A DNA stretch of 64,000 nt, from the NCBI RefSeq assembly GCF_011008905.1, contig NZ_JAAIVI010000017.1, forward strand, positions 1,465,750 to 1,529,749. The letters run 5' to 3'. Source of the DNA: Wenzhouxiangella sp. XN201. GTDB lineage: Bacteria; Pseudomonadota; Gammaproteobacteria; Xanthomonadales; Wenzhouxiangellaceae. The notes below the pieces were generated by a model that ran no database searches, had not been told where the DNA came from, and was given only the letters and a program-made list of their open reading frames with translations. Both the position numbers and the translations under genes were made by a program. Shown here in pieces: positions 39,069-58,239 of the stretch; position 1 is the first letter of the stretch, and each line of letters opens with the position of its first letter.

Positions 39069-39110
39069 TTGATCCGTATCACCATGTCCTGCCAGTTTTC
39101 GTGCTCCAAT
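39069..39110 (+). promoter_or_regulatory. FNR/FixK-type box and -10 upstream of the lone receiver gene
   Basis: TTGAT-CCGT-ATCAC (39069-39082) matches the TTGAT-N4-ATCAA box at 9 of 10 positions. It is followed after 22 bp by TCCAAT (39105-39110), a poor but correctly placed -10. The predicted transcription start is near 39117. Confidence 0.6.
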
Positions 39111-39154
39111 TGAATCCCGTTCCTGCTGGTGTGGTCCACCAACCGGGAATAAGT

Positions 39155-39544
39155 ATGGATATTCAACTGGAGCAGGCCTTGGTTCACGTCGTCGATGACG
39201 ACGAGGCCGTCCGAAGCAGCCTGAGGCTGCTCGGAGAGGCCCGGGGCTGGCAGATAAAAACTTATGCCAGCGCTCACGACTACCTGGCCGAGCCGCCATC
39301 ACCGCAGGGCCGGCTGGAATGCCTGGTTCTGGACCTGCAGTTGCCCGGCATGAACGGCACGCAGCTGCTGGAGATGCTGCGGGCATCGGATCGACAGCCT
39401 GCCACCATCGTCCTGACAGCCTGGCCCGATAGCGAGCTCGCCCGGCGTGCCCTGGCTGCCGGTGCCAGCCAGATCATTCCAAAACCCTTCGTGCCCGGTG
39501 CATGGCTACGCGCCGTCGAAGAATCTCTATCCCCCGCCAACTAA
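39155..39544 (+). CDS. Single-domain response regulator
   Basis: The 129-residue product consists only of a receiver: VHVVDDDEAVRSSLRLL, Asp60 in LVLDLQLPGMNG, VLTAW and the lysine in IPKPF. It is closest in style to FixJ/TodT-type receivers (LPGMNGTQLL). With no output domain it may act as a phosphate sink or a competitor for the adjacent FixL-like kinase. The ATG at 39155 follows GGGAATAAG. It has its own FNR/FixK-type promoter. Confidence 0.88.
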   Translation: MDIQLEQALVHVVDDDEAVRSSLRLLGEARGWQIKTYASAHDYLAEPPSPQGRLECLVLDLQLPGMNGTQLLEMLRASDRQPATIVLTAWPDSELARRALAAGASQIIPKPFVPGAWLRAVEESLSPAN

Positions 39545-39666
39545 TCCGGTCTCGAGTAAGGGAGTTCCCTTATTGGCTAATCCCCCGGATCCCGCTAGAT
39601 TGTTACACAGGCACTCAATGCCGAATGTTGTTGGCACAATCCGATTGATCCCGTTTGGGAGCGGAG

Positions 39667-40371
39667 ATGACACACGGGCTAGGAAATTTGCGGGGGGACG
39701 CGCAATACGCCTCGGCGCAGCCGGCATCCTGGACTGGAGGAACCCGGAACGGACGCGCGCCGCGCCGGATACTCCAGGCCGGGGATCATGTGTTCGAGAC
39801 GGGCGACGCACAGAGCGAAGCTTATATCGTCCGTTGCGGTCACCTCAAAAGTTATCGCGTTCATCGAGATGGCGAGGAGCAGATCCTGGGCATGCTCGGT
39901 CCGGGCGACGTGTTGGGCTTCGATGCCCTGACCGGGCGGCCCGCCAGCTACAGCGTCGTGGCATTGGAGATTGCCAGCCTCGAACGCATCCCCCTGGGTC
40001 GGGATGGAATCGGGGAAGGGGATAGCGCCGGCTACATGAACGTCGTGGAAGGCATGTACCGCGAGTTGCAGCGGTTCAGTAGATTGCTGTATATGGACCG
40101 CCACCCGGCCGAACGCCGACTGGCCGAATTTCTCCTCGATTTTTCGCGCGAGGAAGGCGAGCGGGGCAGGAGCCGTATTGACCTGATGCTTCCCTTCAAC
40201 CGTCGCGACCTGGCATGCTTCCTGGGCCTGGCGCCCGAAACCCTGTCCAGGACATTCAGCCGGTTTCAGGAGCAGGGCATTCTTTCGGTCGACAATCGGG
40301 AAATTCACATTCTCGAATACGAAGCCCTCTTACTCACCGCCGGCGAGCAACCAGATTCAGTCCCTTCATAG
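39667..40371 (+). CDS. FNR/FixK-type regulator lacking the N-terminal Fe-S cysteines
   Basis: The 234-residue product has a beta roll very like FNR (VFETGDAQSEAYIVRCGHLKSYRVHRDGEEQILGMLGPGDVLGFDAL). Its HTH has E191, S194 and R195 in PETLSRTFSRFQEQG, the E-xx-SR set that reads TTGAT half-sites. It starts at 39667 after GGAG. There is no CxxC cluster at the N-terminus, so it cannot bind the oxygen-sensing [4Fe-4S] of FNR; Cys57 and Cys184 (in the HTH) are the only obvious cysteines. This is the FixK rather than FNR arrangement, and it lies beside a FixL-FixJ-like pair. Confidence 0.9.
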   Translation: MTHGLGNLRGDAQYASAQPASWTGGTRNGRAPRRILQAGDHVFETGDAQSEAYIVRCGHLKSYRVHRDGEEQILGMLGPGDVLGFDALTGRPASYSVVALEIASLERIPLGRDGIGEGDSAGYMNVVEGMYRELQRFSRLLYMDRHPAERRLAEFLLDFSREEGERGRSRIDLMLPFNRRDLACFLGLAPETLSRTFSRFQEQGILSVDNREIHILEYEALLLTAGEQPDSVPS

Positions 40372-40508
40372 CGATCTGCCGACCTGGCTGCCGAGCACAA
40401 GTCCGAGCACGCCGACGATTCCCGACACGCTCCCCGAAACCGCGCGCTCCCAAGCCGAGCCCACCCTAAAACAGCCGTGCCCGGTCACGCGAAGAACGCG
40501 CGGTTTAA

Positions 40509-40550
40509 GTGATCGAGGTCAAACCGGCTAAGGCGGGAAGTGGCTACTAT
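40509..40550 (+). promoter_or_regulatory. FNR/FixK-type box and -10 upstream of the DUF3775 gene
   Basis: GTGAT-CGAG-GTCAA (40509-40522), one mismatch from TTGAT-N4-GTCAA, is followed after 22 bp by TACTAT (40545-40550), a near-consensus -10. The predicted start is near 40557, giving a 38-base leader. Confidence 0.72.
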
Positions 40551-40594
40551 CTCAGACAGCTACGCAACATCACACCGATGCGAGGAGGCCGCCC

Positions 40595-41023
40595 GTGGAC
40601 GACAGCGAGCAACCCGCCAAAGGGATCGAAACTGCGGCAACACTCCAGGTCAATCCTGACGATGTCTGCCAGTTGATCCAGCTGGCGCGCGACTTCCACG
40701 CTCAGGACTCCGTCGTTTTAGAAGACGAGCCCGAGAGCCTGACCGACGATCTGGTTTTCGATGCACTCGAGTCTCATGGCGAGGATCCCATTGTGGCCGA
40801 GTTCAGAAACATCATTGCCGATCTCGATCGCGAGCAGCAGGTGCAGGTCGTTAGCCTGCTTTGGGTGGGGCGAGGCGACTACGACCTGTCCGAGTGGCAG
40901 GAGGCGGTCAGCGACGCGGACGATCAATGGACCGACTACACCGCCGATTACCTGTTGGCCCATCCACTACTCGCCGACTACCTCGGTGACGGGCTGGAAA
41001 TGCTGGGTTATCACTGCGAGTAA
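40595..41023 (+). CDS. DUF3775 family protein
   Basis: The 142-residue acidic protein is read from GTG 40595, with AGGAGG 6 bases upstream. It matches DUF3775: VCQLIQLARDFHAQDSVV at the N-terminus, then QVVSLLWVGRGDYDLSEWQEAV and the tail TADYLLAHPLLADYLGDGLEMLGYHCE. Function is unknown. It has a promoter with an FNR/FixK-type box and sits tail-to-tail with the host-attachment gene of the Hsp20 operon, 10 bp apart, consistent with a shared stress role. Confidence 0.85.
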   Translation: MDDSEQPAKGIETAATLQVNPDDVCQLIQLARDFHAQDSVVLEDEPESLTDDLVFDALESHGEDPIVAEFRNIIADLDREQQVQVVSLLWVGRGDYDLSEWQEAVSDADDQWTDYTADYLLAHPLLADYLGDGLEMLGYHCE

Positions 41024-41033
41024 CGGCTAACCG

Positions 41034-41468
41034 CTATAGGTACTCGGGCAACTGGTTGCGAATGGCTGCGGGATCCAGTCTCGAAAGGTTCTTGGCTGTC
41101 TCGCTGCGGATCAATTCCTGGGTTTCGTCATCCAGGTGATTGCGAAGCTCACCCATGAAATGCGGCGCGGCCAGCACGTGCAGCCGGTCCAGGCTGCCGT
41201 CCAAACGAGCCTGGCGCAAGCGCCCGGCCAGTTTCGCTGCCATTGCCTTCTCGGAATGCTCGCGCTGGCTTTCCGATTCGGACATCGAAAAACGTCCGGC
41301 ACGGGAACGATTCAAGCCCCGGCCGGGCCTATCGGACACGAGATCCTGTTCGCGCAGGCGCGAGTCCGGATTGAGCATTACATCGAATTCCTCGAGTGTC
41401 TCCCCGGCACCCTTGCGAAATAGCCGCACGCGCGAACTGTCGGCAACGACCACCCAGCAATCGCTCAC
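41034..41468 (-). CDS. Host-attachment family protein (PF10116-like)
   Basis: The 144-residue product starts MSDCWVVVADSSRVRLFRKG and includes a Ser/Arg-rich loop (GRGLNRSRAGRFSMSESES), then LDRLHVLAAPHFMGELRNHL and SETAKNLSRL. This pattern is that of the Host_attach family, related to the archaeal release-factor-like baeRF group. The name comes from an Agrobacterium phenotype and says little about mechanism. It is the last gene of the Hsp20-dodecin operon, starting 17 bp after dodecin. Confidence 0.85.
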   Translation of the reverse strand: MSDCWVVVADSSRVRLFRKGAGETLEEFDVMLNPDSRLREQDLVSDRPGRGLNRSRAGRFSMSESESQREHSEKAMAAKLAGRLRQARLDGSLDRLHVLAAPHFMGELRNHLDDETQELIRSETAKNLSRLDPAAIRNQLPEYL

Positions 41469-41484
41469 AGGCGCTGTACTCTGC

Positions 41485-41685
41485 CTATTCGAGAACGAAG
41501 CTGACGCGCATGTTCACCCGGTAACGGATGATGTTGCCGTCTTCGACCATAACCTTCTGCTCGGCGATCCACGCGCCACGCACATTCTTGAGCGATTTTT
41601 CGGCGCGCTCGATACCACGACGGATGGCGTCTTCGAAACTCTCGGTGGAGCTGGACGTGATTTCTACGACCTTTGCGACACTCAT
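41485..41685 (-). CDS. Dodecin
   Basis: The 66-residue product MSVAKVVEITSSSTESFEDA... has the dodecin fold pattern: strand, helix (AIRRGIERAEKSLKNVRGAWI) and two strands, with the flavin-stacking Trp in RGAWIAEQKVMVE. Dodecins form dodecamers that store flavin or CoA and protect against photochemical or redox damage. It lies between Hsp20 and the host-attachment gene in one likely operon. Confidence 0.93.
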   Translation of the reverse strand: MSVAKVVEITSSSTESFEDAIRRGIERAEKSLKNVRGAWIAEQKVMVEDGNIIRYRVNMRVSFVLE

Positions 41686-41727
41686 GGATCTATCTCCTCG
41701 AATTGAGCCCGGTCCTTGCCGTTTACC

Positions 41728-42174
41728 TCAGCCCTTGATTTCAATCTTGCGGGCTACAGCTTTCTCGGACTTTGGAATGTGAATCTCCAGCACGCCGTCC
41801 TTCATTTTTGCTTCAACGCCGTCATCGGCTGCGTCGGGCAGCGAGAACTGACGGGAAAAGCTCCCGGAGAATCGCTCGATCCGGTGAAAATTGTCACCTT
41901 CATCGCGACTTTCCTCCGTGCGGCTGCCCCGGATCGTCAGAATCCCCTTGTCCAGGGTGACATCGATATCCTTGGGCTCGACGCCGGGGATATCGGCATG
42001 GACGACGTAGCCCTTCTTGTTTTCCTTGAGATCAACGGCCGGGGCCCAGGATTCGCTGAAGAGTGCCTCGTCCGGGAACTCCTCGAACGGCCAGTCGGCC
42101 ATGGACATCAGGCGGCGCAGGGCGTTGCCTGTCGTGGATGGGTTACTGCGTGTGTGTTTGCGGGGAAGTGCCAT
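41728..42174 (-). CDS. Small heat shock protein (Hsp20/alpha-crystallin)
   Basis: The 148-residue product starts MALPRKHTRSNPSTTGNALRR; the ATG at 42174 has GGAGGA upstream. The alpha-crystallin domain runs from APAVDLKENKKGYVVHADIPGV to DGVLEIHIPKSE, including GILTIRGSR and FHRIERFSGSFSRQF. It holds unfolding proteins in an ATP-independent way. It is the first gene of an operon with dodecin and a host-attachment gene, under an FNR/FixK-type box, rather than a visible sigma-32 promoter. Confidence 0.94.
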   Translation of the reverse strand: MALPRKHTRSNPSTTGNALRRLMSMADWPFEEFPDEALFSESWAPAVDLKENKKGYVVHADIPGVEPKDIDVTLDKGILTIRGSRTEESRDEGDNFHRIERFSGSFSRQFSLPDAADDGVEAKMKDGVLEIHIPKSEKAVARKIEIKG

Positions 42175-42212
42175 GATGAATCCTCCTTGCCTGGATTCCA
42201 CACCACATCCTG

Positions 42213-42254
42213 AGAATACGCCGGCTCAAGCCACAGCGCATTGATACGGGTCAA
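42213..42254 (-). promoter_or_regulatory. FNR/FixK-type box and -10 of the Hsp20-dodecin operon
   Basis: The box reads TTGAT-ACGG-GTCAA on the plus strand (42241-42254), so both half-sites are intact. On the minus strand, TATTCT (42213-42218) lies 22 bp downstream. The predicted start is near 42206, with a 31-base leader. Confidence 0.82.
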
Positions 42255-42390: not shown

Positions 42391-45300
42391 ATGAGCTGCT
42401 CGGCACGATCGAAACGTTCGATGTTCCATGGGCTCTGCTGCCTCCTTTGGCTGCAGGCGGGCATCGCACAGTCAGCGGAGGTGAAATTCCACTCGCTGCC
42501 GCTGGACAATGCGCTGAGCCAGAATACGGTCGTCGACATGGTCCAGGATCAGCGCGGCCTGATGTGGTTTGCCACGCTGGGCGGGCTGGATGTTTACGAC
42601 GGCTATGAGTTCCGCACGATCCCCAGCGACCCGCGTCGCGCAGACAGCCTGACCGGCGTTCACGTCAGCCGGCTGTACGAGGATCGCCAGGGAAATATCT
42701 GGGTCGCGGGCTTTCAGGGTTGGCTCAATCGCATCGCTCCCGATTCCGGACGAATTGACCACTATTCGCCGGAGCTGTATGGCGGGCAGGATGGCCTGAT
42801 CTCGGGACCGTCGGCGTTTCTCGAAACGGCCGACGGTACGCTCTACCTCGGGACGGTCACGGGGCTGCATCGCTACGACGCGGAAAACAATCGCTTTGTG
42901 CGCAATGTCGATGTCGGGCCGAATTCCGACCCGGTGGGCGCGGTCCGCAGCATGGCCGCGGCCAGCCAAGGGCGAATCTGGCTCGGGACCAATCAGGGGC
43001 TGTTCCGCCTGAACCCCGCAAGCGGCGAGCGTGAACACTGGCGTCATGAGGCCGAGCGATCCGATTCTCTGCCTTCCAGTTCGATCCTGAGCCTGCTGGT
43101 CGACTCATCGGGGCGATTATGGATCGGAACGCCGGTCGACGGCTTGGCCCGGCTCGATCCCGCGAGCGGCGATATCGTGCGATTTAGCGCTGACCCCGAT
43201 CGCTCCGATTCACTCGCGAGCAATCAGGTCACGGACATTCTCCAGGATAGCGAAGGCCAGGTCTGGGTCGCCAACCAGTCAGGCGGGCTGAGCCGGTTCT
43301 TGTCGGAATCCGGAGGGTTCGAGGTCTATAGAAACGACCCCGACAACCCCGAATCGATTCCCGCCAACGATGTCTGGAGTCTTTACGAGGATCGTTCGGG
43401 GCTGCTCTGGATCGGGACTGCAGGAAGCGGCGTCAGCCAGATCAACCCCGCGCGCAACCGCTTCGATGTCTTGCGGCATATTCCATTCAACGACAACAGC
43501 TTGAGCAGCCAATTCGTGTGGGATCTGACGCAGACCGCGGATGGCCGCATCTGGATGGCGACGCTCGCCGGACTGGAGTCGTATTCCCCGCGGACACAAC
43601 GCTACAGCCATTTCCAGCCCGCCGTCGATTCGATCGCCTCGGTCCAGATGCAGTCGGTCACGGCGGATGCGGACGGCTACATCTGGCTGGGGGGCGTGGA
43701 TGGCACGCTCTATCGTTTCGATCCCGCACGGGAAGCGTTCTCCGCGGTTGGGCAAGACCTCAGGGACGGGCAGGGCCTGGGGCCCGGTCGGATCTGGAAT
43801 CTCCTGGCCGACGGCGATCTCATCTGGGTCACGACGCCATCCGGGCTGTACGGTCTCGATCGACACTCGCATGTACTTGTCGAGGCGTTGCCTGCTGGCG
43901 AACGTCTGCCGATGGGCGGAACACCCTTTCGCGTCATGCTGCCGGCAAAGCCGGAGGGCTTCTGGCTGGGTGGCGGCGGCCTGGGACTGATGCGCTACGT
44001 GCCAGGGCAGGGCATCGTTGAATCCTGGACGCACCGGCTCGATCAGCCCGACTCGCTCAGCCACTCCATGGTGCGCGCCATTCACGTGGACGAGTCCGGC
44101 GGAATCTGGGTGGGCACACTCAACGGTTTGAACTACCTCTCGCCCGAAAGCCGTCGCCTCGAGCGTGAGCAATTCAGGCTATTCACGACGAGCGACGGCC
44201 TGCCCAGCAATACCATCTATGGCATTCTCCCCGGGGTCGATGGAGCGCTCTGGCTGTCGACACCCCAGGGCCTGGCCCGCTTTGATCGGAGCCGGGAGAC
44301 TTTCGAGGCTTTCGACGTATCCGATGGTCTGCCCTCGAATGAATTCAATGGCGGCGCGGAGCTCGTCACCCGGGACGGCCAACTCTACTTCGGCGGCGTG
44401 GCCGGCGTCGCCATCGTCAGGCCGGAAGCATTGTGGCGAAACGACCATGTGCCGACCGTGGCCATCACCGGCGTCGAAGTTCGCGGAGAGCGTGTTGCAC
44501 GTGAGGACTTCGGATCGAACACGCCTCTCTCGATTCCCTACGCGGAGAATGATCTCACCGTCGAGTTTGCGGTCATGGACTTTCATCAGCCCGAGAAGAA
44601 TCGCTTCGAATACCGCCTCGTCGGCGGAAGCAAGGCCTGGACGCCAAGCAGCCTGCGGAGAATCAGCTTCCACCGCCTGAGCCCGGGGCAATATCGCTTC
44701 GAAGTGCGTGGCGCCAATAACGACGGTGTCTGGAGTGAATCACCCGCAACCCTCGATCTGAGCATCTTGCCCCCCTGGTGGCGCACCAACCTGGCCTATA
44801 CGGGCTACCTCATCATCGGGCTTGCCTTGTTGCTGGCTTACCATCTGCGCCAGCAGCGACGTTTGGCCGAAGAACGGCGCATCAGTGACGAGTTGCAGCA
44901 GGCCCATTCATTGGCCGAAGCGAATCACCAGATGGCCCTGCGCCATGCCCAGTCCGATCAACTCACGCAACTGCCCAACCGCGGGGCGCTGCTCGAAGCG
45001 CTGGCCAGACACATGCGCAAGGCCCGGCCGGAGAAGCCGCTGGCGGTACTGCAGATCAACCTGGATCGGTTCCAGAGGATCAACGATTCATTCGGACATG
45101 CGATCGGCGATCGCGTACTGCAGTTGCTCGCACGCCGTTTCGAGGATGCACTCGAGGAGGGCGATTTTCTGGCCCGAACCGGCTCGGACGAATTCGTCTG
45201 GCTGACCAACCTGGAGGAGGGCGTAGAGCCAGAACAATGGCTGAAGGATCGTTGCCTGCTGATCAACCGCATTGTCGGGGAACGCATGGAATACCTGCAG

Positions 45301-46284
45301 CCCGGTGTCGTCATGACCGCGAGTGTCGGAGCCGCGATCCACGACACCGAAACCTCATCATTGTCTGCTACGGATCTCTTGAGCTGCGCCGATATTGCGC
45401 TTCATCAGGCGAAGAAAAGGAGCGAACCACCGCGCTCGCAGCTTTACCAGCGCGGCATGGACGAAGCGGCACGGCAACATCTGGCAATCGAAGCACGTCT
45501 GAAGTCAGCGCTGGAGCAGGATGAATTCAGTCTTCGCTTCCAGCCGTTGATTGCGATTGAAAGCGGCCGGGTGCGAGCCCTCGAGGTTCTTTTACGATGG
45601 CAGACGGGGGAGGGCGAATTCATTCCCCCGGACCGATTCATTCCGATCGCCGAACAGAGCGGTCTGATCGTGGATATCGGCGCCTGGACCATCCGTGCAT
45701 GCTGCCGCCAGATCTCCGAGTGGCTTCGAGCCGGCCACCCAGCCGACTTTCGCGTTGCCGTCAACGTCTCGATGCGTCAGCTACGCGGCGGTGGCTTTGC
45801 CAGCGTGTTGCAGGAAGCCACAAAGGAATTCGACGTACCGCCCTCCATGCTCAAGGTCGAAATCACCGAAAGCATGATGATGGAACACGTGGAGGATACC
45901 GCCGATCAACTCGAGGAAATCGCACGCCTGGGCGTGGAGATCTCCGTCGACGATTTCGGCACAGGCTTTTCATCACTCAGTCATCTCAAGCTGCTTCCGG
46001 TCAGCGAACTCAAGATCGACCGCGCATTCGTGATCGATGTGATGAGTTCCGAACAGAGCCGGACAATCGTTCAATCCATCGTGCGGCTCGGTCACGAATT
46101 GAATCTCCGTGTCGTTGCAGAAGGCGTAGAAGATTCCGACTCACTGGAATGGCTGGGCCAGGTCGGATGCGACTACGCCCAGGGCTATTACTTTGCACGG
46201 CCACTGACCGCCGGTGAGCTTGTCGGCCAGGGCTGGTTAACGCCGGTAGCAAAAGCCAGGAAACGAGTCAGGCAGACATCCTGA
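42391..46284 (+). CDS. Two-component-type propeller sensor with GGDEF and EAL domains
   Basis: The 1297-residue product has an N-terminal signal (LCCLLWLQAGIAQSAE) and repeated beta-propeller blades with W-x-G/A-T-x-x-G-L patterns to about residue 690. A Y_Y_Y domain follows, then a membrane helix near residue 805 (LAYTGYLIIGLALLLAYHL), a GGDEF domain (about 855-1010) and an EAL domain. The GGDEF signature is GSDEF at residues 930-934, so cyclase activity is doubtful. The EAL domain keeps EVLLRW, NVSMRQL, EITESMMM and DDFGTGFSSL and is probably an active c-di-GMP phosphodiesterase. AAGGA precedes the ATG. The propeller should sense a periplasmic ligand. Confidence 0.9.
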   Translation: MSCSARSKRSMFHGLCCLLWLQAGIAQSAEVKFHSLPLDNALSQNTVVDMVQDQRGLMWFATLGGLDVYDGYEFRTIPSDPRRADSLTGVHVSRLYEDRQGNIWVAGFQGWLNRIAPDSGRIDHYSPELYGGQDGLISGPSAFLETADGTLYLGTVTGLHRYDAENNRFVRNVDVGPNSDPVGAVRSMAAASQGRIWLGTNQGLFRLNPASGEREHWRHEAERSDSLPSSSILSLLVDSSGRLWIGTPVDGLARLDPASGDIVRFSADPDRSDSLASNQVTDILQDSEGQVWVANQSGGLSRFLSESGGFEVYRNDPDNPESIPANDVWSLYEDRSGLLWIGTAGSGVSQINPARNRFDVLRHIPFNDNSLSSQFVWDLTQTADGRIWMATLAGLESYSPRTQRYSHFQPAVDSIASVQMQSVTADADGYIWLGGVDGTLYRFDPAREAFSAVGQDLRDGQGLGPGRIWNLLADGDLIWVTTPSGLYGLDRHSHVLVEALPAGERLPMGGTPFRVMLPAKPEGFWLGGGGLGLMRYVPGQGIVESWTHRLDQPDSLSHSMVRAIHVDESGGIWVGTLNGLNYLSPESRRLEREQFRLFTTSDGLPSNTIYGILPGVDGALWLSTPQGLARFDRSRETFEAFDVSDGLPSNEFNGGAELVTRDGQLYFGGVAGVAIVRPEALWRNDHVPTVAITGVEVRGERVAREDFGSNTPLSIPYAENDLTVEFAVMDFHQPEKNRFEYRLVGGSKAWTPSSLRRISFHRLSPGQYRFEVRGANNDGVWSESPATLDLSILPPWWRTNLAYTGYLIIGLALLLAYHLRQQRRLAEERRISDELQQAHSLAEANHQMALRHAQSDQLTQLPNRGALLEALARHMRKARPEKPLAVLQINLDRFQRINDSFGHAIGDRVLQLLARRFEDALEEGDFLARTGSDEFVWLTNLEEGVEPEQWLKDRCLLINRIVGERMEYLQPGVVMTASVGAAIHDTETSSLSATDLLSCADIALHQAKKRSEPPRSQLYQRGMDEAARQHLAIEARLKSALEQDEFSLRFQPLIAIESGRVRALEVLLRWQTGEGEFIPPDRFIPIAEQSGLIVDIGAWTIRACCRQISEWLRAGHPADFRVAVNVSMRQLRGGGFASVLQEATKEFDVPPSMLKVEITESMMMEHVEDTADQLEEIARLGVEISVDDFGTGFSSLSHLKLLPVSELKIDRAFVIDVMSSEQSRTIVQSIVRLGHELNLRVVAEGVEDSDSLEWLGQVGCDYAQGYYFARPLTAGELVGQGWLTPVAKARKRVRQTS

Positions 46285-46386
46285 AAGACTCCCGGCAAGA
46301 TGATGTGCTAATGTGACTTTGATCCGGCTGAATTCTTGGGAAGGGGCAGGCCGGATCGACTGACAATAAGAAAAAGGAGGGTGATC

Positions 46387-47631
46387 GTGACCAAGCACGA
46401 TCATGCATCGCGCGCAGACATTGGCAGAATGCGCGAGGAGATCCTCGCTTACCGCGCGCTTAGAGCTTCCGTCGGCCTGTCGCGCCGAGCGTCCCTGAGC
46501 CTGATCTTCATCGGCCTGCTTGTCTCGTGGCTGCTGAGCTATGTCACCGGCGGTGCCGAAGTTCTCGCACCGCATTGGTACTACCTGCCGATTCTGTTCG
46601 CGGCGACCCGGTTCGGGCCGCTGGCGGCCCTGATCGTTGCCTGCATGGCCGGCGTGATCGCCGGGCCGCTCACGCCGGCCGATGTCGAAACCGGCCGACC
46701 CCAGGAGTTGGTGCAGTGGTTGTCCCGGGCCGGTTTCTTCATCCTGATCGGACAGGTCTCCGGATGGCTGCTCTCGCCACTGATTCGGCACCCGCTGGCC
46801 GAGGAAGTGCGGCGCCTGAGCATCGAACATCGCATCCGTTCGGCCATTCATCAACGCGAATTCCACCTGGTCTACCAGCCCATCCACTCGATTGCGCAGG
46901 GGCGGCATGTCGGCGTCGAGGCGCTGATCCGCTGGATTCACCCCACACTGGGCATGATTGCGCCGGATGAGTTCATGAGTGTGGCCGAAGAGACCGACCT
47001 GATTCACGCCATCAGCGATTTCGTGCTCGAGGAAGCCTGCCGACAGGCCGCCGAGTGGCGACGGCTCGCCCACTCCAAAGGCTGTGAACCCTGGCAGATT
47101 GCCGTCAACCTGTCTGCACGCGACATGGATCGCCCGGAACTCGCTCGGGTGATCGAAGAGGTGCTGGCGCGCCATGAGCTGCCACCCGAGCTGCTGATTC
47201 TGGAACTGACCGAATCCGCGCTGGCGTTGGACGGCTCCAGTTTCCAGCTCTACCAGCTGCGGAAGCTCGGAATCAGGCTCGCCGTTGACGACTTCGGCAC
47301 AGGCTACTCGTCACTGTCCTACCTGGATCGCTTCCCGGTCGACATCCTGAAGATCGACCAGACGCTCGTCGCCAAGCTCGGGCCCGAAGAATCGAGCCAG
47401 CGCCTGACCCGCGCCATTGTCGGCCTGGCCAATGCAATGGAATTGACCACCATCGCTGAAGGCATCGAAACCGCCGAACAACTCGAAATCGGTCGCCAGA
47501 TCGGCTTCGACCTGGTCCAGGGCTATCACTTCGAGCGCCCGCAGGCCGGCGAAGATATTCCCGCCCTCATGCTCGCGCCCGGAACGCCGGCCAGCAACGC
47601 GGCGAATCCAGGACGAGATCGTCATCCATGA
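46387..47631 (+). CDS. Membrane EAL-domain c-di-GMP phosphodiesterase
   Basis: The product is about 414 residues from GTG at 46387, 6 bases after AGGAGG. The N-terminus has several membrane helices (LSLIFIGLLVSWLLSYVTGG; PLAALIVACMAGVIAG; FFILIGQVSGWLLS) in a small MASE-like sensor. The EAL domain has VEALIRW, NLSARDM, ELTESAL, VDDFGTGYSSL and LKIDQTLV, all catalytic residues present, and no GGDEF. It probably degrades c-di-GMP. It follows the propeller-GGDEF-EAL gene by 102 bp. Confidence 0.92.
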   Translation: MTKHDHASRADIGRMREEILAYRALRASVGLSRRASLSLIFIGLLVSWLLSYVTGGAEVLAPHWYYLPILFAATRFGPLAALIVACMAGVIAGPLTPADVETGRPQELVQWLSRAGFFILIGQVSGWLLSPLIRHPLAEEVRRLSIEHRIRSAIHQREFHLVYQPIHSIAQGRHVGVEALIRWIHPTLGMIAPDEFMSVAEETDLIHAISDFVLEEACRQAAEWRRLAHSKGCEPWQIAVNLSARDMDRPELARVIEEVLARHELPPELLILELTESALALDGSSFQLYQLRKLGIRLAVDDFGTGYSSLSYLDRFPVDILKIDQTLVAKLGPEESSQRLTRAIVGLANAMELTTIAEGIETAEQLEIGRQIGFDLVQGYHFERPQAGEDIPALMLAPGTPASNAANPGRDRHP

Positions 47632-47760: not shown

Positions 47761-47802
47761 TTGACCTTGATCAAGGACTCAAGCGATCCTGCTAACTAGC
47801 AT
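47761..47802 (+). promoter_or_regulatory. FNR/FixK-type box and -10 of the second Crp-type gene
   Basis: TTGAC-CTTG-ATCAA (47761-47774) is followed after 22 bp by TAGCAT (47797-47802), the same -10 as at the Usp promoter. The predicted start is near 47809, with a 60-base leader. Confidence 0.82.
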
Positions 47803-47844: not shown

Positions 47845-47858
47845 TTGATCCGGATCAG
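47845..47858 (+). promoter_or_regulatory. Second FNR/FixK-type box, inside the leader
   Basis: TTGAT-CCGG-ATCAG, one mismatch from the box, lies downstream of the predicted start and 10 bp before the ATG. Binding here should block transcription, giving repression at high regulator levels. Confidence 0.6.
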
Positions 47859-51700: not shown

Positions 51701-54700
51701 TCGCCGGGCGGCATCTGCAAGTGATGCAGTTCGAGCGCGGTCTGCATGCGAGCCTGTTCGAACAACCAGTTGATCCGGCTTGGCGAACCATAATGGCCCA
51801 TGGCGCTGATCAGTTCCGCCTGCGAGCGGGCCGCAGCCGTCAGCAGGCCGATCTCGATGCGACCGTAGGGCTCGATCGTGATCTCCAGCGCCATCGTGCT
51901 GGAGGGATTGATCACCGCGCCGGTCGTTCCGCTCAAGCTCTCGAGACCGTCTGCCAAGCCTGCCGGCCGCCGCAGGTTTCCGCCGCGACCGACAAAGCGA
52001 TCGCGGTCGGTCTCCCAGCCGAAACGGGCGGTCAAACCCGGCGGTGGAATGAGTGCATGGCCGACGTAGAGCGACATCTCCTCGTCGCTTCGTGGCCGAC
52101 GCCGGAACACCAGGGTCCGGTCGTTTGGCAGGCATTCGCTTTCGACGAACAGGCGGGCAAAGGCCGGATGCCGCTCGAAATCCCGCGCCGGCGCCATGGC
52201 CAGCTCGGAAAAACTGGCGATGACCAGGCGCCGGGGCGTTCCCGACTCGTTGTTGATGACCAGCCGACGCGCCTCGACGTCGTGTTGGCCGGCAATGGCG
52301 ACGTCCAGCCGGCAGAGCAGCGCATGACGCCGGCGCCGGAATTCGACCCGGTGAGGCGCCTGTACGATCTGGGTCTCGCCGACTTCGTCCCACGAGGCTG
52401 GATCGGCCGCAACCGTGAACAGTCGGTCTTCGTCGGGTTCGGCGATATAGACCCGCGACACGTCTCGCCGGGTCGTGATATCTGCCTGCCAGCGGTTGAT
52501 GGCAATGCCCTGCCACCAGCTGCCACCGCCGCCGCAAGCGTCAAGGGTGGTGCTGAGAGTGCCATTCGACAACAGGCAATAGCGCGCTGCTGTCGAGTCC
52601 CGGGGTGCGACCGTCCATTCCACCGGGCTAGCGGCAACAGCCAGGGTGCGTTCGGGCTGAAGGCGCATGCGGATTGCCAGCTCGGGACTGGTCCGAGGCA
52701 GGCGTTCGTGCAGCAGCATCGAGACGCCGGCAATATGCCGGTCAGCCATGAAGCGCCGCGCCATGATGTCATTGTTGAGGTAGTTGTCGATGGCGGCAAG
52801 GATCATGCCCTGGTGATGACTCATCCAGGCCCTGACCACCCGGGCTCGGCGCGGCTTGTCACTGGTGCGGCGCCCGAAGTCGACGGCCTCGTAACAGCCG
52901 AACAGACCGATGGCGTGCATTCCGGCTAGCTTTTCGAGGTTATCGATTACAGCAGCCGGGCGGTAAGGCAATGCCATCACGCTGGCATACGGTGCCACCA
53001 CCAGTCGCTCACCCAGGTCGCGGCGGAAACCCAGGCCGGGTACGCCGAAGCTGCGATAGGCATAGTGGCGTTCTTCATTGAGCTGGTAGTAGGCCGACTC
53101 CGAAACACCCCATGGAATGCCGCCATGCGCGTCGGCGAAATCCCGGTGCAGATCGATGGCATTGACGCTGGCCGTCTCCAGCAGCCCGGTCACCGGCGTC
53201 GGACAGTAGAGTCGGGGCATCAGGTATTCGAACAGGGTCGCGCCCCAGGACATCAACAGGCGGCGTCCGCCGTAGCGTCGAAAGGGTCGACCCAGGTGCA
53301 ACCAGTGGCGCATCGGGACCTGGCCGCGCGATATGGCCAACAGGCTGGTCAGGCGGGCCTCGGAGGCCAGCAGGTCGTAGCAGCCGGAGTCGAGTGCCGC
53401 GTTGTCGACGTCGAAGCCGATGCGAAACTGATGCCGCTCGGCGTCGTAGAGAAACCCGAAGTCCATTTCGGTCACCCAGCACTCGGCCAGCCGGGCCAGG
53501 TCCGCACAGTCTTCGGCCAGATGCTGATTGGCCTCGCGGGCCTGCTCGAGGTGGTGTTGCATACGCTTGGCCAGGGGTGCCGGAAGCCCTGCCCCATCAC
53601 ATCGTGCGGCATTCATCAGACGTTCGGCGCGTCGGCACTGGGTCACATGCGCTTGCGGACACCATCCGGTCTCCATCAACCTGGCCAGTTGCGCCAGCGG
53701 CCGGCTGCCGCTGTCTTCGGCATGTTTCTTGAGCGCAGGCAGCTCGGGTAGCCAGGGCTGCAGGGACTTGATCGCACGTCGGGCCTGGCGTACCTGCCCG
53801 ATCAATTGTGTCAGCCAGGTTCGCAGTTCGGCGATGAGGTCGGCGCTGACGTCGAGGGTCTGGTCCTCGGCCAATTCGATGATGGCCTCGGCCAGTTCGT
53901 CGAGCTGGTATTCGTGCCACTTGTCGAGGAGCTCGCAACATTTGCCGGGACTGGCTGCCAGCGCCTGGCGGTACTGCCCATCGATACGATCGAGCCATTT
54001 CGCCAACGCGTGATCTCGCGGCGACTGTTTGGCCAGCGGGCGCGCAGTTCGTTCGATCAAGTCGAGAGTGTCGGCCAGGCCACGCGCCAGTTGCGTCAGG
54101 GCCAGCGGCTTGCTTCTGATTTCGTCGAGTGAACGCGCCAGCGTGACCAGGGCGACCGCCAGGTTGCCGCTGTCGACGGTGGAGACGTAGGCCGGCGGAA
54201 GCCGTTCGAGATCGTCAATCTCGTACCAGTTGAACCAGTGACCCCGATAGCGCTCCAGTTGCGCCATGCCTTCCATGCTGTTGCGCAGCCAGGCGGTAAG
54301 CGTGTGTGGGTCGATCCAGCCGAAGTCGTGGGCGACCAGGGCTGAATTCAGTGCCATGCCCATATTGGTCGGCGAGGTGCGCGCCGCCAGCGCGACCCTG
54401 GGATCGTCCTGATAGTTGTCGGGCGGCAGCCAGTGAGTATCGGGCCCGACAAAGTGATCGAAGAACAACCAGGTGCGCCGGGCGATGCGCCGCAGCAGTC
54501 GCTCGGCGTCGGGATGCGGGCGCTCGAACTTGCGCCGGCGTTCTCTCTCCACGCGCTGAACGATTGCGGGTGCGGCCAGCCAGGCGGACGCCAATGGCGC
54601 GGCCACGAGCAACAATACGGGCTGTGACAGGCTCACGCCCGCGAGCACGGCCGCGCCCAATAGTGGACAGGGCCACAGCTCACGCCACAGGCTCTTGCGG

Positions 54701-57216
54701 GCCTGGCCGAGGCTCCGGTGGACATGGGCAGCCGTGGTCCATTCGAGCAGGTGTCGGTGGGTGATAAATAGTCGGACCAGTGTGCGGACGACGGCATCGC
54801 CGATCACCAGGCTCTGGTACGGCAGCAGAACCAGGCTTAACAGCCAGTGCTGGGCCTGCAATCGCAATCCGTGCAGCGTGGGTCGCAGTCTCAGGACGGC
54901 CGCTCGCGGTGCGGCCAGCAGGTGGCTGGCCGAACCAAGCAGTTCGCTCAACAAACCCGCGGCCAGCAGGAGGAGAAAGACCAGCGACCACAGCAGGTCA
55001 TTGCCAGGCAGGATGCCGCTGAAACCGATCAGGATCAGCAGCAGCGAGACCGGCGGCTGCAAGCTGCGGCGCAGGTTGTCGACAATCATCCACCGGTGGA
55101 CGAGAGAGAGCCGGTTGCGATGCCGCTCGCCGTCAGTGCCCCGCGGGCTGTGGCCGAGCCAGGGCAGGAGCTGCCAATCGCCGCGTACCCAGCGATGCTG
55201 CCGGCGTGTCCAGGCGGTCACACTGGGCGGGAACTGCTCCATGAGCACGATGTCGGTAGCCAGGCCGACGCGGGCAAAGATGCCCTCGAGCAGGTCGTGA
55301 CTGAGCAAACTGTTGTCGGGGATGCGCCCTTCCAGCGTCGCCTCGATAGCACGCCAATCGTAGATGCCCTTGCCGGCGAAGATGCCTTCGCCGAATAGAT
55401 CCTGGTAGACATCCGAGCTGGCGTGGGTGTAGAGATCAACAGTCGTGTCGCCGGAAAAGGCGCGCGTGAAGGCGTTGTTGCGCGTGGTGTCCGGATCGAT
55501 CTCGACACGTGGCTGGATGATGCCGTAGCCGGCCTTCAGTGAGCGGCCGTCGCCACTGTAGACAGCGCGGCTGAGTGGATGGGCCAGCGTGCCCACCAGC
55601 CGTCTGGCGCCCCCCGGCGGCAGGCGGGTGTCGGCGTCCAGCGTGATCACGTAACGCACGTCGTCGAGTCGTTCGCGCTCGCCGAAGGCCTCGACAAAAC
55701 CTGAATCTTCGTGACCGGCCAGCAGCCGATTGAAGGCCATCAGCTTGCCGCGCTTGCGCTCGCGCCCCATCCAGCAGCCTTCCCGCTCGTTGAATTCTCG
55801 CGAGCGGCACAGGAACAGAAAATCGGCTTGGGGGTATTGCTTCGCCAGGCGCTCGATCTGCAGCCGGGCCCTTCGCAGGATGGTCCGGTCCGAGTCCAGC
55901 GTGGCCTCGTCGGCATCGTGCAGGTCGCCCAGTACGACCCACACCAGCTCCGGATCATCATTGGCGAGGAAATTGACTTCCAGGTGCTCGAAGACAGGGG
56001 CGACATCCTCGGGGCCGGAAAATATCACCGGTACAGCGACCGCGCTGCGGTATGGGGCCGGAATGCCTGACTCGAAGTCCAGGCGCGCCAGCGTGCGCGG
56101 CGGCACCAGGCGGGTCAATAGCCCGTTGGCGAGAGTCACGGCCAGGCCGAGGGCTGGCACAAGCAGCAACACAAGGAATGCGGCCGACAGCGCTACAGAG
56201 GCCTGATGATGACTGAGATAGACGGTCGGAAGCGCAAGAGCCGCGCCGGCCAGTGCAAATACCAGCATGAAGTAGACCGACCCGGGCCGGCGCCGGGCGA
56301 AGTCCAGGAAGCGCCGTCCCGGACGTGGCCGATAGCCGATCTTCTGTTCGGTCTGCCGCCGTCCACCGCCGACCAGCCAGTAGCCAACATGACCATGACG
56401 GGCATCTTGCGGCGAGGCGCGTGCCAGGGACAGGCAGTGATCGGCAATAGTCACCTCGTCGAGTCGGCTGCTGCGCGCGAGTTCTTCCACCACGCGCCGG
56501 TAGCGGTCACGGGACTCGAAATCCATTTGCGGATAGGCACCGGAAGGATCGTCACGAAGCAGGCGCTCGACCGCACTCAACCGTTCGAAGCTCAGGCGCC
56601 AGTCATGCGCCGACAGCGTTCGCAGGCTGATGACGCCGCTGGCAATTCGTTCGACCAGGCCGCTCTCCTCCTCGCGCCCGGCCCGCACCTGCTCGACCAG
56701 AACCTCACCGGCTTCGATCAGCTGGCGGGTTTCGGCCAGGATCACGAAAGCCGGCAGGGCCCAGAGCTCGCCGATGCTCAGGGATCGCTCCGACTGATAG
56801 AGATCGATGGCGTGCTCCATCCAGGCCGGGTCGACAGGCTGGCCGCCCTGCTGCACCAGGATGGCGGCCAGGGCCTCGACCGCGGGAACGGAGGGCTCGC
56901 CCTTGTCTTCGACCCCGGGCAGGCTTTGTACATAGGCTTTGGGGAGGTCACGCTTGACTCCGGCGAGCGCATCCTCGATCACATGCCGGTTGTCGAGCAG
57001 CCATTCCTCGCCGCGCGAGGCATAGCGACGGCCGGCCAGGAGGACATCGAGATTCGTGTAAAGTCCGCTCAGCCGCTTGCGCTGTCGATCCAGCTGCCGA
57101 CGGAACCGCCGGCCATCGGACTTTCTTAAACGTCCGTTTCGCGCCAGCGTATACAGGGCATGTTGCAGCGACTGATGGTCAATCTCCGGGCTGCCGGTCG
57201 GCTGGGAGCTCGACAC
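48730..57216 (-). CDS. ndvB: Cyclic beta-glucan synthase (NdvB/ChvB-like)
   Basis: The 2828-residue product has the length and architecture of NdvB. It has an N-terminal region, a pair of membrane helices (SVYFMLVFALAGAALALPTV) and a GT84 transferase domain with TLDADTRLPPGG and RRQHRWVRGDW. More membrane helices (SLLLILIGFSGILPG) follow, then the glycoamylase-like segment (GGIPWGVSESAYY, GMHAIGLFGCYEAVDF, WMSHHQGMILAAI) and a C-terminal GH94 phosphorylase domain with the acid Asp in GDWNDGLN. It makes periplasmic cyclic beta-1,2-glucan from UDP-glucose, with osmotic and envelope roles. It is cotranscribed with the Usp gene 10 bp upstream, under an FNR/FixK-type box. Confidence 0.92.
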   Translation of the reverse strand: MSSSQPTGSPEIDHQSLQHALYTLARNGRLRKSDGRRFRRQLDRQRKRLSGLYTNLDVLLAGRRYASRGEEWLLDNRHVIEDALAGVKRDLPKAYVQSLPGVEDKGEPSVPAVEALAAILVQQGGQPVDPAWMEHAIDLYQSERSLSIGELWALPAFVILAETRQLIEAGEVLVEQVRAGREEESGLVERIASGVISLRTLSAHDWRLSFERLSAVERLLRDDPSGAYPQMDFESRDRYRRVVEELARSSRLDEVTIADHCLSLARASPQDARHGHVGYWLVGGGRRQTEQKIGYRPRPGRRFLDFARRRPGSVYFMLVFALAGAALALPTVYLSHHQASVALSAAFLVLLLVPALGLAVTLANGLLTRLVPPRTLARLDFESGIPAPYRSAVAVPVIFSGPEDVAPVFEHLEVNFLANDDPELVWVVLGDLHDADEATLDSDRTILRRARLQIERLAKQYPQADFLFLCRSREFNEREGCWMGRERKRGKLMAFNRLLAGHEDSGFVEAFGERERLDDVRYVITLDADTRLPPGGARRLVGTLAHPLSRAVYSGDGRSLKAGYGIIQPRVEIDPDTTRNNAFTRAFSGDTTVDLYTHASSDVYQDLFGEGIFAGKGIYDWRAIEATLEGRIPDNSLLSHDLLEGIFARVGLATDIVLMEQFPPSVTAWTRRQHRWVRGDWQLLPWLGHSPRGTDGERHRNRLSLVHRWMIVDNLRRSLQPPVSLLLILIGFSGILPGNDLLWSLVFLLLLAAGLLSELLGSASHLLAAPRAAVLRLRPTLHGLRLQAQHWLLSLVLLPYQSLVIGDAVVRTLVRLFITHRHLLEWTTAAHVHRSLGQARKSLWRELWPCPLLGAAVLAGVSLSQPVLLLVAAPLASAWLAAPAIVQRVERERRRKFERPHPDAERLLRRIARRTWLFFDHFVGPDTHWLPPDNYQDDPRVALAARTSPTNMGMALNSALVAHDFGWIDPHTLTAWLRNSMEGMAQLERYRGHWFNWYEIDDLERLPPAYVSTVDSGNLAVALVTLARSLDEIRSKPLALTQLARGLADTLDLIERTARPLAKQSPRDHALAKWLDRIDGQYRQALAASPGKCCELLDKWHEYQLDELAEAIIELAEDQTLDVSADLIAELRTWLTQLIGQVRQARRAIKSLQPWLPELPALKKHAEDSGSRPLAQLARLMETGWCPQAHVTQCRRAERLMNAARCDGAGLPAPLAKRMQHHLEQAREANQHLAEDCADLARLAECWVTEMDFGFLYDAERHQFRIGFDVDNAALDSGCYDLLASEARLTSLLAISRGQVPMRHWLHLGRPFRRYGGRRLLMSWGATLFEYLMPRLYCPTPVTGLLETASVNAIDLHRDFADAHGGIPWGVSESAYYQLNEERHYAYRSFGVPGLGFRRDLGERLVVAPYASVMALPYRPAAVIDNLEKLAGMHAIGLFGCYEAVDFGRRTSDKPRRARVVRAWMSHHQGMILAAIDNYLNNDIMARRFMADRHIAGVSMLLHERLPRTSPELAIRMRLQPERTLAVAASPVEWTVAPRDSTAARYCLLSNGTLSTTLDACGGGGSWWQGIAINRWQADITTRRDVSRVYIAEPDEDRLFTVAADPASWDEVGETQIVQAPHRVEFRRRRHALLCRLDVAIAGQHDVEARRLVINNESGTPRRLVIASFSELAMAPARDFERHPAFARLFVESECLPNDRTLVFRRRPRSDEEMSLYVGHALIPPPGLTARFGWETDRDRFVGRGGNLRRPAGLADGLESLSGTTGAVINPSSTMALEITIEPYGRIEIGLLTAAARSQAELISAMGHYGSPSRINWLFEQARMQTALELHHLQMPPGEVQFAMLLMSAMLEPQPEWRWMGERPDEALQSLLWSRGISGDWPIIAGLVNNRGNLEQIERLVRAHTLISGRQLRSDLLLIDETAGGYEQTGRDRLQELVESVRSRTQRVLLGQVTVIPGRELSADQRRALLAAASVVLDLDRPDLHSQLLAPRPARLPPLVPSRDAQEVDQTLQPLARPDDLVHDNGIGSFSADGREYVIHLEPGQFTPAPWSNVLANPDFGTLVTESGSSFTWAGNSSEYRLTAWPDDPVTDPSGEVIYLRDEETGRVWTPTPGPRPGPGACQVYHGIGYSRFLRHDSGLEQELALHVDKTDAVKICRLALTNHCDWTRRITATCYLEWVLGNRRGDTALHLDCELDLEHHALLASNGYERFAGRGHAFVASDQPVHGFTTDRREFLGQGGSIDQPAALWRIGLSGSLAAGCDPCAALQVHLDLPPGETRVVHFVIGHGATREAALALAEQYISEGQGERSRKQSRQHWDQLLSGVEFETPDESFNILYNHWLPYQAITSRLWGRTGYYQSSGGFGFRDQLQDVMAMTWLAPEATRQHILHAASRQFREGDVLHWWHESPLRGVRTRCSDDLLWLPFVTAHYVEATGDHGILDEELAWLDGAPLASGEAERYAEFAQSGHRASLFEHCCRAIDRASTVGPHGLPVIGSGDWNDGLNRVSTTGRGESVWLAWFLVRVLREFAPICESRGETESAAQYRQLAELLVGRVAIHAWDGDWYLRAWFDDGLALGSKDSEECRIDLIAQAWSVLGPEQPPEQAAGAMMAALEQLVDDDARLILLLRPPFNRIQHDPGYIRGYPPGIRENGAQYTHAATWALWAAARLGWPDQVERLLGILDPVKQSSTEADCRHYRLEPYVLSGDIYSQGENRGRGGWSWYTGAAAWAWRGAVEAVFGLRRLGDQLRIDPCLPPAWDRCRVTLRTGASTYVVEYRQFSSAPEQAQTGIEMDGRSIEGNMIDFVDDGDAHHVVVVIKRFQQPRPV

Positions 57217-57226
57217 GACCGGCCTC

Positions 57227-58162
57227 TCAGTCGCCGCCCTGCAGCAATTCCTGCCCCACCCGCATGCCGTCCTGCAGCGCGAGAACGGGCGTGGTAATGC
57301 GAGTCAGCAATACCTGGCGCACGGCCTCGCTGCTCCAGCCGCTACTGCCCTCGCCGTGGTGTACGGCCAGCACCAGCAAGTCGGGATGATCCTGCTGGCA
57401 GACCTCGGCAATGGTCTCCACCGGCCGTGTAGAGGCCTCGAGACGGGTTCGGATTTCGTGATGGGATCCCAGGCGATCACGCAACTCCTCGAGATAGCCG
57501 GCGGCAACACGTCGATTACACTCGAGCAGTTCTGACTTGAGTGAATGCTCGTGGGCCGTCAGCGGTCGGCGCCGTGGCATCAGGGGTTCGCTGACCAGGT
57601 GCAGAAGCTCGATCGTCGTGCCGCCACCGGCATCCAACGCGCTGGCCACGTGCAAGGCCACCTCCGCCGGTTGGGAGCCATCCAGCGACACCATGACATG
57701 ACGATAGGGCTCGCCGGGTTTCGCCTCGTCGGCCTGGCCGCGAACGATCAGGTAGGGAATGCGCGTACTGGCCAGCACCTTGTGCACGGTGCCACCGTAA
57801 GGCAGACCGAAAGCACCCCCGGCGCCCCAGGCAGACAACACCACCAGGCGGATCTCATGATGTTCGATGAACTGTGCAATCGCATCGGCCGGACGCCCGT
57901 CCAGCACTTCGATCTCGGTCGGTGCCCCGGCCAGGCGCTCATCGCCGATCAACTTCTGCAGGTATCGCTGCGCCTCGGCCTTGCGCAGCCGCCAGTCGAC
58001 ACTGCCCGCACAGTGCTCCCCGTCCGTATCAGGCCGCTCTTGCAGCACCCGCAAGAGGAACACCCGACTGGAAAACGCTCGCGCCATCCGTCCGGCATGC
58101 ACCAGCGCCTGCTCGGCATAATCCGAACCGTCGAGTGGAACCAGGATGCGGGAAAAGGGCAT
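57227..58162 (-). CDS. Tandem universal stress protein
   Basis: The 311-residue protein has two UspA domains. The first starts FSRILVPLDGSDYAEQALVHAGRMA and ends with WGAGGAFGLPYGGTVHKVLA...PYLIVRG. The second starts HVMVSLDGSQPAEVALHVASALD and ends HHGEGSSGWSSEAVRQVLLTRITTPVLAL. Parts of the ATP-binding G-rich segments are visible in both. Usp proteins help survive starvation and low oxygen. It is the first gene of the operon with the glucan synthase and has an FNR/FixK-type promoter with a 29-base leader. Confidence 0.93.
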   Translation of the reverse strand: MPFSRILVPLDGSDYAEQALVHAGRMARAFSSRVFLLRVLQERPDTDGEHCAGSVDWRLRKAEAQRYLQKLIGDERLAGAPTEIEVLDGRPADAIAQFIEHHEIRLVVLSAWGAGGAFGLPYGGTVHKVLASTRIPYLIVRGQADEAKPGEPYRHVMVSLDGSQPAEVALHVASALDAGGGTTIELLHLVSEPLMPRRRPLTAHEHSLKSELLECNRRVAAGYLEELRDRLGSHHEIRTRLEASTRPVETIAEVCQQDHPDLLVLAVHHGEGSSGWSSEAVRQVLLTRITTPVLALQDGMRVGQELLQGGD

Positions 58163-58197
58163 GACGTGGCTGCAAGCACCTCATGAGAGATGCTTTC

Positions 58198-58239
58198 ATG
58201 CTAACCACCGCCCCTTCTGCAAGCGTTGATTCAGGTCAA
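58198..58239 (-). promoter_or_regulatory. FNR/FixK-type box and -10 of the Usp-glucan synthase operon
   Basis: The box reads TTGAC-CTGA-ATCAA on the minus strand (58226-58239), with both half-sites intact. After 22 bp comes TAGCAT (58198-58203), identical to the -10 of the copy 2 Crp gene. The predicted start is near 58191. Confidence 0.85.

Follow-up and report, generated by a model that had tools for sequence, protein, structure and literature searches.

Five candidate boxed promoters beside a Fix-type block

The DNA considered here is a 64 kb stretch, referred to throughout as the window, from the genome of Wenzhouxiangella sp. XN201 (3.13 Mb, 22 contigs). Located within it are a four-gene block that resembles the FixLJ-FixK cascade and five candidate promoters with boxes of the FNR/FixK type, one of which lies inside the block. 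Genes and boxes are named by window position. The features of the block are as follows.

36858-38414, plus strand: FixL-like histidine kinase, PAS-PAS-HisKA-HATPase, without a heme PAS (Pfam, NCBIfam)
38440-39045, plus strand: FixJ-like response regulator, receiver and LuxR-type helix-turn-helix, the start perhaps somewhat upstream (Pfam)
39069-39082, plus strand: imperfect FNR-type box of the lone-receiver gene (pattern match, one mismatch)
39105-39110, plus strand: -10-like TCCAAT, 22 bp from the receiver box
39155-39544, plus strand: lone receiver domain, resembling FixT in position and control (Pfam, alignment)
39557-39574, plus strand: FixJ-type operator TAAGGGAGTTCCCTTATT upstream of fixK (conservation, pattern search)
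39596-39601, plus strand: -10-like TAGATT of the fixK promoter
39667-40371, plus strand: FixK-like regulator of the Crp/Fnr family, lacking Fe-S cysteines, with recognition helix ETLSR (Pfam, NCBIfam, structure matches, alignment)

The remaining boxed promoters and their genes lie downstream.

40509-40522, plus strand: FNR-type box, one mismatch, of the DUF3775 gene (pattern match)
40545-40550, plus strand: -10-like TACTAT, 22 bp from the DUF3775 box
40595-41023, plus strand: DUF3775 protein (Pfam)
41034-41468, minus strand: Host_attach / baeRF family 12 protein
41485-41685, minus strand: dodecin
41728-42174, minus strand: Hsp20-family small heat-shock protein
42213-42218, minus strand: -10-like TATTCT, 22 bp from the Hsp20 box
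42241-42254, minus strand: perfect FNR-type box of hsp20-dodecin-host_attach
47761-47774, plus strand: perfect FNR-type box of the 47869 Crp-type gene
47797-47802, plus strand: -10-like TAGCAT, 22 bp from the 47761 box
47845-47858, plus strand: second box, one mismatch, past the predicted start site of the 47869 gene and ahead of its start codon
47869-48567, plus strand: Crp-type regulator, recognition helix EGVTE
48730-57216, minus strand: cyclic-glucan-synthase-like protein, 2828 aa, named from its domain content (GT2-like, glycoamylase, GH94), with no NCBIfam match
57227-58162, minus strand: universal stress protein (Usp) with two Usp stretches
58198-58203, minus strand: -10-like TAGCAT, 22 bp from the Usp box
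58226-58239, minus strand: perfect FNR-type box of usp-cyclic glucan synthase

The box pattern employed was TTGAY-N4-RTCAA, and the reversed pattern served as the control. All five boxes claimed in a preliminary description of this DNA are present; those at 42241, 47761, and 58226 are perfect, and those at 39069 and 40509 each carry one mismatch. The claimed gap of 22 bp between the box edge and a -10-like hexamer was likewise borne out at five of five sites, the hexamers reading TCCAAT, TACTAT, TATTCT, TAGCAT, and TAGCAT in the order of the boxes. Four of these conform to TANNNT, and the TCCAAT at the receiver is weaker. On the basis of class II geometry, transcription is predicted to start near 39117, 40557, 42206, 47809, and 58191.

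With up to one mismatch allowed, the pattern matches 10 times in the window, as compared with a mean of 4.04 and a maximum of 11 in 100 shuffles, one of which reached 10. The matches at 9016, 23455, and 26692 fall inside called genes. Given a local TANNNT rate of 0.0068, finding the motif at a gap of 22 in at least four of 20 box orientations has a probability of ~1e-5, or ~3e-5 when the gap may be chosen freely from 21, 22, or 23. The same preference is seen in the 32 orientations of the 16 perfect boxes that lie elsewhere in the genome: among gaps of 6-44, that of 22 gives the best mean match to TATAAT (1.97, the next being 1.59). A hexamer whose second base is A and whose sixth is T follows at this gap in 7 of the 32 orientations (p ~3e-4), and the full TANNNT in just two. 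The class II geometry of the FNR family proposed in the preliminary description is supported both by this spacing preference and by its retention in the orthologous promoters described below.

The boxes in the genome and at orthologous promoters

There are 19 perfect boxes in the genome versus four matches to the reversed pattern. Summed over the 43 genomes used for all comparisons at the family level, XN201 included, the corresponding numbers are 1007 and 138, with the boxes above the control in every genome. Seventeen of the 19 lie outside called genes, as judged from a simple gene call, and two of these 17 overlap a called start (C17:36004 and C17:778543). Boxed genes that score above NCBIfam cut-offs encode the fumarate reductase flavoprotein (frd), cbb3 oxidase subunit I, HemN, and UbiU; a NapC/NirT cytochrome and copper nitrite reductase-like and NADH dehydrogenase subunit A-like proteins fall below them. 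A boxed pair at C17:1361349 reads by eye as NorC and NorB, for which NCBIfam provides only weak cytochrome oxidase matches. Some boxed genes, such as those for an Hcp-like protein, a peptidase, and a DUF2868 protein, look unrelated to respiration.

Because boxes accompany genes of anaerobic respiration across the genome, the five sites belong to a wider network rather than to a separate local set. A purely local regulon, as first described, was rejected on this spread: 16 of the 19 perfect boxes lie outside the window, several of them beside anaerobic-respiration genes. The combination of a perfect box and a TANNNT exactly 22 bp away occurs at five places in the genome, three of them in the window. 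The listing of boxes and hexamers covered one-mismatch boxes only where they lay outside called genes.

A second cluster, with five perfect boxes, lies at C17:33367-71307; its genes read by eye as a heme-copper oxidase, a DNR-like protein, FNR, UbiD, and UbiU. The genome also encodes a copper nitrite reductase-like protein (L039 3105-4256, below the cut-off) and, by eye, a NorCB-like pair (L033 1141-2965). Complete denitrification had, however, been reported in 2020 as unique to strain AB-CW3 within the genus, and the excerpted text of that study does not mention FixL (PMC7691419).

Conservation of the boxes at orthologous promoters had been set beforehand as the test on which the proposal could fail, and such conservation was observed for four of the five. 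The Usp protein (E 1e-30) is encoded in 13 of the 43 family genomes, 12 of which provide upstream DNA; a Usp fragment at a contig end (L095), without such DNA, was excluded, and two loci that repeat G017 and G027 (L097 and L099) were each counted once. The box is perfect in all 12 Usp promoters; the gap to TANNNT measures 22 bp in 10 of them and 21 bp in the other two. The lone-receiver box is kept in 10 of 10 promoters as TTGAY-N4-RTCA[C/T/G], followed by TNNAAT at 22 bp in nine and at 21 bp in one. This conservation extends to L130, a metagenome-assembled genome of the Ectothiorhodospiraceae in which FixK identity has fallen to 43%. The Hsp20 promoters of the fetched loci have a perfect box in four of four cases (gap 22 in three, 21 in one). 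For DUF3775, a box is found in five of seven genomes at a distance that varies from 30 to 174 bp from the start of the match; in G027 the DUF3775 gene begins ~90 bp past the end of the fixK match. Both Hsp20 and DUF3775 adjoin fixK in several genomes. A class-wide search for Usp, covering a sample of 369 genomes out of a larger group (E 1e-50, at most six candidates scored per genome), returned only XN201 itself.

The Fix block, its operator, and the missing heme PAS

FixL and FixJ are the best NCBIfam models for the kinase and the response regulator. The order FixL-FixJ-receiver-39667 recurs in seven of seven relatives with a spanning region and also in G039 and L130. The nearest homologues of the 39667 protein among named relatives are those of Wenzhouxiangella, and orthologues of at least 45% identity occur in nine of the 43 family genomes, XN201 included.

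Upstream of the 39667 gene lies no FNR box but a conserved palindrome, TAAGGGAGTTCCCTTA. A palindrome of the FixJ type precedes fixK in 10 of 10 loci, in divergent form in L130; since the G039 FixK in L075 begins at a contig end, its upstream region was taken from L127. In nine of the 10 fixK promoters, TANNNT lies 18 bp beyond the 22-bp operator motif. The FixJ site of Sinorhizobium meliloti, found experimentally and given in the excerpted text of PMC4999443 as TAAGTAATTTCCCTTA, agrees with the window operator at 13 of 16 bases when compared by eye; the agreement is poorer for the G036 copy. A pattern built from these operator copies has one perfect match in the genome, upstream of fixK, which is expected by construction. 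Matches with two mismatches occur at the control rate, and thus no second FixJ target is seen in the genome.

The resemblance to the FixLJ-FixK2 systems of Bradyrhizobium, Sinorhizobium, and Caulobacter, insofar as these are covered by excerpts of PMC9104804 and PMC4999443, is considerable. The succession of FixL, FixJ, fixK, and then FNR-type boxes is the same, a FixJ operator of the form TAAG....TTCCCTTA precedes fixK, and fixK is, as there, the only gene found with a perfect operator. The system described here differs in its gammaproteobacterial host, in a FixK that is FNR-like in sequence, in a FixL that lacks the heme PAS in the clade of the window genome, and in its boxed neighbors, namely Hsp20, dodecin, Usp, and the cyclic-glucan-synthase-like gene. 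In Burkholderia, according to excerpts of PMC5234846 and PMC9104464, FixLJ induces fixK at low oxygen, and the lxa locus contains Usp genes near a Crp/Fnr regulator, is induced by low oxygen, and is linked to anoxic survival. Fix-type induction of fixK and Usp genes near a Crp/Fnr regulator would be the shared elements; the Burkholderia system differs in being betaproteobacterial, in the heme pocket predicted for its FixL, and in its gene cluster.

A search for the lone receiver in the same 369 genomes, with at most 11 candidates scored in each, gave matches in seven other genomes. Six of the seven are FixJ itself, and the seventh (G404, L138) is the L130 block again. No report of a FixLJ-FixK circuit in Wenzhouxiangella was found in the literature searched, which is no proof of absence. 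In G005, which belongs to another genus, FixLJ with a heme-PAS-like domain (60%) was observed, and downstream of fixJ lies the box TTGACCCCCGTCAT, 22 bp from a TGCAAT (L153 3680-3693); the receiver and FixK were not found in that genome.

The FixL of five relatives within the genus (G027, G029, G031, G036, and G037) contains a third PAS domain with the F-helix histidine. That of G036 matches FixL heme-PAS structures with E values of 1.7e-30 to 4.3e-28 and is identical over LMPEPDRSRHDSYI. This domain is absent from the FixL of the window genome (G000) and of G017, G016, and G039. The stretch between the second PAS and HisKA amounts to only 41-45 residues in these four genomes versus 161-162 in the five relatives and L130. 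The two PAS domains of the window FixL have no significant match to a heme-PAS structure (the best to FixL being E 0.055 over residues 28-72), and their best structural matches are to RpfR (7.5e-8) and BvgS (2.2e-6). With L130 as the outgroup, the four genomes lacking the domain form a clade with a bootstrap value of 100 that is nested among the relatives bearing it, which indicates one loss. Direct oxygen sensing by the FixLJ-FixK branch is therefore doubtful in this clade.

Candidate regulators and interpretation

Nine proteins encoded in the genome match HTH_Crp_2, and in three of them the recognition helix has the core ET-SR: FNR at C17:60806, with Fe-S cysteines spaced Cx2Cx5C, a DNR-like protein at C17:35246 (named by eye; the NCBIfam matches, FtrB and Fnr, are weak), and the 39667 protein. 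The N-terminal Fe-S cysteine motif is found in none of the 11 sequences of the 39667 clade, which come from 10 genomes and include one cut off N-terminally (L044); it is present in 21 of 22 other FNR-like matches. The ET-SR core is retained in nine of the 10 FixK sequences with a visible helix. Judged from the sequences around it, the 39667 protein is FixK-like by its control. The helix EGVTE is carried by the Crp-type proteins at 34111 and 47869 and by two of three genes on contig C20; the 47869 protein was thus rejected as a reader of the boxes, since its helix is not of the FNR type. The C20 genes, at C20:460-2824, are three tandem Crp-type genes related to the 47869 gene.

The ETLSR helix of the 39667 protein is of the FNR type and supports the preliminary description. 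Control of the set by its gene alone was not supported. FNR and the DNR-like protein carry ET-SR as well, and the Usp box is perfect in five genomes in which no 39667 orthologue was detected (G012, G013, G019, G024, and G026, of which only G012 and G013 are >90% complete). Note that the second G013 match is 46% identical to FNR and 36% to the 39667 protein. In these genomes it should therefore be possible for FNR or the DNR-like protein to serve the Usp promoter.

We consider it likely that the five sites are class II FNR/FixK promoters, that they constitute the local part of a genome-wide network, and that they lie beside a Fix-type circuit. From the boxes, their spacing and conservation, the conserved operator, the order of the block, and the loss of the domain, all read from sequence, we infer the following scheme for binding, activation, feedback, the identity of the signals, and the physiological role. 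An FNR-family dimer would bind TTGAY-N4-RTCAA centered ~41.5 bp before the start and activate RNA polymerase. FixL would phosphorylate FixJ, which would bind the operator at 39557-39574 and switch on the 39667 gene. The FixK so produced would act at the boxes, either sharing them with FNR and the DNR-like protein or replacing these two. One box would drive the lone receiver by fixJ, and the others would drive Hsp20-dodecin-host_attach, DUF3775, and Usp-cyclic glucan synthase, probably in support of survival without growth. Oxygen would most likely reach the promoters through FNR, because FixL has lost the heme PAS kept by its relatives, and the FixLJ-FixK branch would add another signal. The boxed set may serve in dormancy or at low oxygen. 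The passage of a low-oxygen signal through the 39667 protein is the weakest point of the reading, as FixL lacks the sensor domain.

The position of the lone receiver, together with its box, suggests a FixT-like role. According to excerpts of PMC7078487, FixT of S. meliloti and Caulobacter is a single-domain receiver that is induced through the FixLJ pathway and inhibits FixL. Common to the two is a single receiver tied to FixLJ and placed under the downstream output. By analogy, the receiver is probably a FixT-type brake on FixL. It differs from FixT in its position between fixJ and fixK, in its lack of the four-cysteine motif, and in having kept the phospho-acceptor residues: the acidic pair, the acceptor aspartate, and the lysine are retained in eight of eight aligned receivers.

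Several FNR paralogues with common targets have been described in Herbaspirillum seropedicae, as seen in excerpts of PMC5934665. Three Fnr proteins are present there, their shared targets include universal stress protein genes, as might be the case here, and fnr1 has a class II promoter with its site centered at -42. FixL is not mentioned in that text. The last base of the box helps to distinguish the Fnr paralogues in H. seropedicae, and it is our guess, by analogy, that the imperfect final base conserved in the receiver box discriminates between regulators in a similar manner.

If the assignment is correct, a FixLJ-receiver-FixK circuit with a FixJ-type operator is present in the Gammaproteobacteria, and stress-survival genes (Hsp20, dodecin, Usp, and the cyclic-glucan-synthase-like gene) are tied to the FNR-box network of the genus. 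In addition, the loss would be a natural case in which the oxygen-sensing domain alone was removed and the output wiring stayed intact, and comparison of the close relatives would allow one to test how a two-component cascade can acquire a different input and yet retain its targets.

A number of observations weigh against the assignment. FixL, FixJ (169 bits, cut-off 255), and FixK all fall below their NCBIfam cut-offs, as does FNR (191.8 of 228 bits, the gene call being N-terminally short). Among solved structures, FNR matches the 39667 protein better (84 bits) than FixK2 does (52 bits), and the sequence of a box, taken by itself, does not reveal whether its reader is FixK, FNR, or the DNR-like protein. 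In L130 the FixK helix reads ETLCR, the -10 of fixK is not at the common distance, and the third PAS of FixL has a tyrosine in place of the histidine. The receiver box deviates from the pattern at its last base in 10 of 10 promoters, and the -10 that follows is weak; the eight aligned receivers, moreover, have one invariant cysteine and no four-cysteine motif. The DUF3775 box is absent from G027 and G014, two of the seven genomes. With up to two mismatches, box, 22 bp, and TANNNT occur together 79 times (44 forward, 35 reverse) versus 56 (33, 23) for the reversed pattern; the loose combination is thus not specific, the counts being barely above the control. The backbone of the tree has weak supports of 59-82. 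Finally, three weaker heme-PAS matches occur elsewhere in the genome, the best of them (32% identity, E 8.1e-17) in a 951-residue frame at C19:46187, and another heme sensor is therefore possible.

The 47869 promoter fares worst. At all 14 homologue loci, the 320 bp of upstream DNA (195 bp in L115) were free of any box with up to one mismatch, and its inclusion in the set by the preliminary description was not upheld. This comparison is weak, because several of the 14 loci may be paralogues. The gene has several paralogues in its own genome, and its box may therefore be recent or fortuitous.

Within the favored assignment, a more specific history can be put forward tentatively. According to this, one clade of the genus would have lost the FixL heme PAS a single time and kept FixJ, the operator, FixK, and the boxed receiver; the circuit would thus have been rewired, with oxygen now entering via FNR at shared boxes and FixL reporting some other signal by means of the two PAS domains left to it. 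Oxygen may have an additional entry in three of the four genomes without the domain (G017, G016, and G039; L071, L073, and L127), where fixL is preceded by an FNR-type box that has one mismatch and is followed at 22-23 bp by a -10-like hexamer. The window genome, the fourth of the clade, has no such box upstream of fixL. As a substitute for the heme PAS the box is a weak idea, because G027 and G031, which possess the domain, also have one-mismatch boxes upstream of fixL, in their case without a -10.

It is rather unlikely, though a serious alternative, that the promoters are ordinary FNR targets, that the FixLJ-FixK block is incidental, and that the 39667 protein acts at other sites. The limited distribution of its orthologues, the cysteine motif of nearly all other FNR-like matches, the perfect Usp box in five genomes where FixK was not detected, and the identical pattern beside classical anaerobic genes would all be explained in this manner. 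Such an explanation, however, leaves aside the receiver box kept in 10 of 10 FixLJ-receiver-FixK blocks, the ET-SR core in nine of 10 readable FixK helices, and the adjacency of Hsp20 and DUF3775 to fixK in several genomes. Less probable still is a dedicated dormancy or low-oxygen regulon under the 39667 regulator, as originally proposed: the gene content (Hsp20, dodecin, and Usp) and the adjacency agree with it, but the spread of the boxes across the genome, the Usp box without FixK in the five genomes, and a FixL devoid of the heme PAS do not. Chance matches in AT-richer intergenic DNA can scarcely account for the set, even with about four one-mismatch matches expected in the window and the 47869 box not conserved, given the 19 versus four perfect boxes, the preferred spacing, and the conserved orthologous sites; for the Usp, receiver, and Hsp20 boxes, chance is refuted by conservation.

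Some additional features of the window deserve mention. The second box at 47845 has no -10 at 22 bp and could, as a guess, be a repressor site that would make the 47869 gene self-limiting. Positioned between the boxed operons, at 42391-47631, are two c-di-GMP genes (propeller-GGDEF-EAL and EAL), the first of which is divergent from the Hsp20 box. Lastly, a one-mismatch FNR-type box at 10182-10195 on the minus strand, with TAGCAT at 21 bp, lies 64 bp before a gene for an FAD/NAD-binding oxidoreductase (9345-10118) and is possibly a sixth site.

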